Under the pieces are notes generated by a model that saw only the letters and a program-made list of their open reading frames with translations, was not told where the DNA came from and ran no database searches. A stretch of DNA of 64,000 nucleotides from an uncultured Gemmatimonadota bacterium (GTDB lineage Bacteria; Gemmatimonadota; Gemmatimonadetes; Palauibacterales; Palauibacteraceae), in NCBI GenBank assembly GCA_913043255.1, contig CAJWLK010000001.1, positions 186,001 to 250,000 of the forward strand. Direction: 5' to 3'. Positions within the stretch are counted from its first letter, which is position 1. The number at the start of each line of letters is the position of its first letter. This document shows, piece after piece, positions 3,365 through 4,426 of this stretch. A program made the position numbers and the translations under genes.

Positions 3365-4426
3365 TTAGCCTAAACCGCGAATAGCAACACCCCTATCCGA
3401 ACTCTCAACGAACTCTCCAATCATAGATGCTGCATATCCTGCAGCATCGAGGGCACTGGCAGCATCTTCAGCTTGATCCGGAGGGACAGCCGCCATCAGA
3501 CCACCAGACGTCTGAGGATCTAATAGCACAAGGCGACGCGACTCAGAGACTGACTCATCCCACTGAACGGAACCACCTGCAGCACTCTCATTGCGATGGG
3601 TTCCATCTGGTACACAACCCTTATCTGCGAGTTGAAGTGCACCCGGTAAAACTCGTGGTGCCATCGTATGAATGTGCGCACTAACAGCAGATGCACGACA
3701 TATCTCCAGTAAGTGTCCAAGTAACCCAAAACCTGTAACATCAGTGGCCGCGTGCACATCGAATCCTCTTAACACTCGAGCAGCTTCCGCATTAAGCTGA
3801 CGCATAGACTGGACCGCCACTAATAGATCTGCTGGGTTCGTGAGGTCACGTTTGACCCCAGTCGTGAGGATTCCGGTTCCGAGTGCTTTTCCGAGGACAA
3901 TAGTGTCGCCCGGTCGAGCCCCTTCTTTTTTCCAAAGGGAATCTGGGTTTGCTAGCCCAATGGCAACAAGCCCGAACTTAGGCTCCGTATCATCGATCGA
4001 ATGCCCACCCGCGATTGGGACTTTCGCCTCTTCACATATCTCGCCCGCACCCCTTAGTATCGCCCCAATGATTTCGGGTGCGAGTTCACTACTCGGAACC
4101 GCTAATACGTTAAGCGCGAAGATCGGGCGAGCCCCCATTGCATATAAGTCACTCAACGCGTTGGCCGCAGCAATAGCCCCAAAATCCGCCGGGTCGTCGA
4201 CAATGGGCGTAAAAAAATCCAGACTCGCAACGATGGCTTCACCGTTATCAAGTAGATAGACAGCGGCATCATCCGGCCCATCCAAACCCACGGCAAGCCG
4301 GTCGTCACGCAGCAACGGGACGTATTCCAAGATACGGCTCAGATCCTCTGAGCCGATCTTACACCCTCAACCAGCGCCGTGTGAATATTGTGTTAGGCGA
4401 GCCAATTCCGCCGACGGTGTATTCAT
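3365..4426 (-). CDS. selD: selenide, water dikinase SelD, itself a selenocysteine protein (in-frame TGA 4367-4369)
   Basis: SelD makes selenophosphate from selenide and ATP for Sec-tRNA and selenouridine synthesis. The reading frame without recoding starts at TTG 4330 and lacks the catalytic N-terminus. Reading through TGA 4367-4369 gives an N-terminus starting at ATG 4426 with QYSHGAG-U-GCKI, nearly identical to the well-known YSHGAGCGCK motif, so the TGA falls on the catalytic Cys position (residue 20 of 353). Downstream motifs are intact: GPDDAAVY (about 50), DFFTPIVDDP (70), AGGHSIDD (135), TDVTGFGLLGH (220) and DPQTSGGL (305). A SECIS hairpin follows the TGA. TGA is used as a normal stop in neighbouring genes, so this is Sec recoding, not an altered code. 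No strong Shine-Dalgarno site is visible before ATG 4426. Confidence 0.93.
4329..4360 (-). promoter_or_regulatory. bacterial SECIS element in selD
   Basis: Read on the minus strand, six bases after the TGA, AAGAT pairs with ATCTT. Inside it an 8-bp perfect stem, CGGCTCAG/CTGAGCCG, closes a five-base loop AGGAT that contains the GG typical of SelB-binding loops. A single unpaired U (4334) sits between the two stems, like the bulged U known from the E. coli fdhF SECIS. Position and shape fit a bSECIS that recruits SelB-Sec-tRNA. The hairpin lies within coding sequence, so the pairing is kept while it also encodes the residues after UGC. Confidence 0.9.

Follow-up and report, generated by a model that had tools for sequence, protein, structure and literature searches.

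The inspection of a 64,000-nt stretch of DNA from a Gemmatimonadota bacterium (hereafter the window, at its full length) revealed a gene for selenophosphate synthetase (selenide, water dikinase; selD) on the reverse strand at positions 3365..4426, whose in-frame TGA at 4367..4369 almost certainly specifies selenocysteine (Sec). The gene, the position and conservation of its TGA, the hairpin that follows and the decoding genes of the genome were established by sequence. We assign a probability of about 97% to the reading that the product is a Sec-containing SelD in which a hairpin directs UGA decoding, Sec20 serves in catalysis and the selenophosphate formed supplies other selenoproteins.

Reading frame and conservation of the in-frame TGA

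The frame running from 4426 to 3365 comprises 353 residues, ends in TAA and contains a single internal stop, the TGA at codon 20 (4369-4367), flanked as MNTPSAELARLTQYSHGAG-TGA-GCKIGSEDLSRIL. Reading through it gave QYSHGAG-U-GCKI, and the resulting protein matched the SelD profile TIGR00476 over all of its positions (1-311 of 311) with 378 bits (cut-off 125). The TGA aligned with Cys17 of E. coli SelD (3u0o), the surrounding RLTQYSHGAG[C]GCKI being identical; the GAG-U-GCK segment fell on E. coli residues 14-20, and the glycine-rich N-terminal loop thus contains both the Cys/Sec site and the Lys that follows it. Among 79 named SelD loci, this column held Cys in 53 and TGA in 26. In the absence of recoding, the first start open to a gene finder is the TTG at 4328..4330 (first base 4330), which yields a 321 aa product devoid of the catalytic loop. 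An earlier note on this DNA had claimed a TGA at the catalytic Cys position (residue 20), a TTG start without recoding, restoration of the motif by read-through and an otherwise intact SelD; its coordinates and residue number proved exact, and the other points were borne out. The truncated gene call is likely to be mis-annotated in public annotation, and a corrected call regains the catalytic loop.

The full-length start was placed at the ATG at 4424..4426. The 57 nt (19 codons) from this ATG to the TGA differed from those of a relative (L021) by nine synonymous changes and one nonsynonymous change, and the 60 nt upstream of the ATG showed 15 identical positions. The same excess of synonymous changes and the same upstream drop were seen against three other relatives. 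The synonymous excess after the ATG, together with the low identity before it, indicates that the stretch preceding the TGA is translated; its codons evolve as coding sequence under protein-level constraint.

In the GTDB family to which the window belongs, a SelD match was found in 29 of 35 genomes, and 27 of these 29 (the window's own included) carried one TGA, always at the same codon. The two remaining matches (L047 in G034 and L048 in G029, two genomes of the same genus that lack a Sec-SelD) were distant Cys forms, 33-38% identical and with much longer frames (749-793 codons); they may correspond to the NADH-dehydrogenase-SelD fusions described previously (PMC4561486). In the phylum sample, SelD was present in 280 of 395 genomes and SelB above its cut-off in 281. 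An internal TGA was found in 136 of the best 150 of the 280 SelD matches, its position being checked for the window's family and 12 other matches; since the matches were ranked by similarity to a Sec-SelD, the share among the other 130 may be lower. In a more distant family (f4), 17 of 25 SelD matches contained a TGA, counted at any position. The identification of the phylum as Gemmatimonadota is borne out by the SelD proteins of several phylum-mates, whose identity to named records of Gemmatimonadetes and Longimicrobiales was 77-82%.

Four genomes of the phylum (G036, G104, G183 and G251) contained a SelD gene with an in-frame TGA and no SelB above the cut-off, G036 having an estimated completeness of 99%. 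Contigs may be missing from these assemblies, or the Sec trait may be in decay.

The possibility of a second Sec in SelD was considered for five phylum relatives that appeared to have two TGAs, and was discarded: in three, the second could be seen to be the stop that ends the gene, and the other two had just one TGA inside the aligned protein. A scan of TGA-joined frames across the window returned apparent terminal stops, leader extensions and selD, and no further selenoprotein gene. No tRNA or Rfam family was found within the 64 kb.

The hairpin downstream of the UGA

A predicted bacterial SECIS hairpin, CGGCUCAGA-GGA-UCUGAGCCG, lies at 4335..4355 on the reverse strand. It has nine base pairs, and its apical GGA loop starts 20 nt after the UGA. 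The 50 nt counted from the UGA had a minimum free energy (MFE) of -21.4 kcal/mol, with a z-score of -4.6 relative to dinucleotide shuffles; when the protein was held fixed, 2 of 1000 synonymous recodings folded as well. A search for such an element had been proposed in the earlier note, and the hairpin proved to be of the bSECIS type in every respect of the published model (PMC13188914), which specifies a loop of 3-9 nt (here 3, GGA), a stem of 4-16 bp (here 9), a G within the first two nucleotides of the loop (here the first), a spacing of 16-37 nt (here 20) and an MFE ≤ -7.5 (here -21.4).

All nine pairs were retained in every distinct sequence of the genus, and one of them was doubly changed, from C-G to U-A, each of the two changes being nonsynonymous (P to S and G to S). 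In a covariation control, 58 of 500 shuffles reached the observed values; the test is thus supportive but weak because the sequences of the genus are nearly identical. Outside the genus the register was not kept; the stem conserved there was shorter and its register shifted. The GGA loop lay 20 nt from the UGA in the window's genus, whereas the distance was 17 nt in the majority of the remaining family members.

In many of the named Sec-SelD genes (those of Gemmatimonadota, Bacillota, Acidimicrobiia, Planctomycetota and other groups), the UGA was followed by a pair of hairpins, of which the second had a tip resembling GCAGGU..CUGC. In the window's family a clear second hairpin was absent, and the first carried the GGA loop. 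As far as folding tells, this suggests that the SECIS has shifted its place within an orthologous selD gene. A fuller scenario, in which the second hairpin decayed, the nearer first one took over and its loop moved by 3 nt between genera while the UGA stayed fixed, the Sec form of SelD being the main and probably ancestral one in the phylum, is put forward tentatively, at somewhat under even odds. If the shift were real, a SECIS could relocate within one orthologous gene around a fixed UGA. Gemmatimonadota would be a good place to study SECIS evolution, since the phylum is rich in close SelD relatives that share the UGA and differ in their hairpins.

In the Cys-SelD gene of Gemmatimonadetes bacterium isolate Ww169 (L110), the Cys codon is still followed by a strong hairpin (-29.6 kcal/mol). 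This hairpin may be a SECIS left over from a Sec-to-Cys change.

Probable Sec decoding in the genome and rival explanations

The genome that contains the window (2.45 Mb in 28 contigs; 94% complete, 0.5% contamination) was searched for the Sec-decoding genes, all three of which the earlier note had taken to be implied by a Sec-SelD. A tRNA-Sec was found above its cut-off (74 bits) and was called tRNA-SeC with anticodon TCA by ARAGORN; SelB scored 361 bits (cut-off 242) in an open ORF of 629 aa, and SelA 501 bits (cut-off 268) in an open ORF of 486 aa. The three genes lie on contig 5. For 2-selenouridine synthase (SelU/YbbB), nothing scored above the cut-off in the genome; a weak match of just 27 residues was rejected and therefore gives no evidence for the 2-selenouridine trait.

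At least four further selenoproteins were predicted in the genome: FdhA, two peroxiredoxin-family (AhpC/TSA) proteins and a SelW-like protein. This count is a minimum, since it comes from targeted searches and a few stretches of a genome that was not rebuilt. The fdhA gene (G000:C2; L129 and L158, about 5273-7984 of L158) has one in-frame TGA, in NQIDNCSRA-U-HAPTVAGL, which coincides with the Sec site of FdhA; ordinary ORF calling splits the gene in two, while the protein read through the TGA reached 725 bits with TIGR01591 (cut-off 666). Its hairpin has a GGUCU loop, as in E. coli fdhF, and the gene adjoins fdhD-like and NuoEF-like genes (names read from the translations). The in-frame TGAs of the other three genes occur in GRW-U-PYC (Prx-like AhpC/TSA protein; G000:C2:145165-145605, L153), TPG-U-T (AhpC/TSA peroxiredoxin; G000:C3:36955-37347, L155) and CVV-U (SelW-like protein; G000:C1:517846-518055, L159). 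In all four genes a hairpin that conforms to the bSECIS model lies after the TGA; taken one by one, those of fdhA, the Prx-like gene and the peroxiredoxin gene were no stronger than synonymous recodings. This Gemmatimonadota family, for which at least five selenoproteins are predicted, joins the list of Sec users.

Translation of SelD would begin at the ATG at 4426. At the UGA (4369-4367), SelB and Sec-tRNA-Sec would bind the hairpin just downstream, Sec being inserted and termination avoided. Sec20 would lie in the flexible N-terminal loop and serve to convert selenide and ATP into selenophosphate, which SelA would use to form Sec-tRNA-Sec. The latter would supply SelD itself and at least four others (FdhA, the TPGUT peroxiredoxin, the Prx-like GRWUPYC protein and the SelW-like CVVU protein). 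We infer that Sec is actually inserted, that Sec20 is used in catalysis and that the loop is self-dependent, SelD requiring its own product.

The TGA is one base away from a Cys codon (TGC or TGT), and Cys-SelD does occur in the phylum, as in L110, so a sequencing or assembly error might be suspected, as the earlier note had also allowed. However, TGA occupies that exact codon in 27 separate genomes of the family, which argues against both chance and error and already refutes the latter; the SECIS-type hairpin after the TGA and the presence of tRNA-Sec, SelA and SelB also speak against an error, whose probability we consider very small. Equally little weight can be given to a selD pseudogene, or to a gene making only the short SelD from TTG 4330 without its catalytic loop: the 321 aa ORF exists, but the constraint on the 19 codons before the TGA, and the fall in conservation upstream of the ATG, are at odds with this, as are the intactness of the remaining protein and the lack of any second SelD in a search of the genome.

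Since the gene is conserved and yet holds a TGA in frame, genome-wide reassignment of UGA (to Trp or Gly, for example) might also be considered. This is contradicted by normal stop use, as TGA terminates 21 of the window's 35 long open stretches, by the occurrence of the TGA at the Cys/Sec site in selD and likewise at known Cys/Sec sites in the other genes found, and by the presence of tRNA-Sec; reassignment is thus extremely improbable. Decoding as Sec is the reading retained below.

Relation to known SelD proteins

SelD is the second most widespread family of prokaryotic selenoproteins. In a published reference set, 19% of SelD genes encoded Sec, always at the same position (PMC4561486), and every selenoprotein-containing bacterium had FdhA or SelD (PMC1794560). 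The Sec-SelD described here is therefore ordinary in kind, the form being already known and common; what is less documented is its frequency in Gemmatimonadota. The phylum was not named in the main text of the selenium literature searched, although a supplementary table entry may exist, and, as far as titles and abstracts tell, none of the publications containing both Sec and Gemmatimonadota terms treats Sec use in this phylum.

The occurrence of Sec-SelD in bacteria and animals, noted earlier for this gene, agrees with the literature: the Sec-SelD of bacteria and archaea and the SPS2-Sec of animals have Sec at the same N-terminal loop position as the window's SelD, and bacterial Sec-SelD genes likewise have a bSECIS directly after the UGA in organisms that possess the Sec machinery (PMC4561486, PMC13188914). 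While many of the other Sec-SelD genes examined have the GCAGGU..CUGC-tipped hairpin, the SECIS predicted for the window's family appears to lie nearer the UGA. E. coli SelD (the Cys17 form, PDB 3u0o) belongs to the same family over residues 8-342 and shares the RLTQYSHGAG-x-GCKI motif, but has Cys instead of Sec and needs no recoding. The Aquifex aeolicus SelD (PDB 2yye and 2zod) aligned as the same family with the same catalytic site, but is more distant, and its crystallised chain has Cys at that site.
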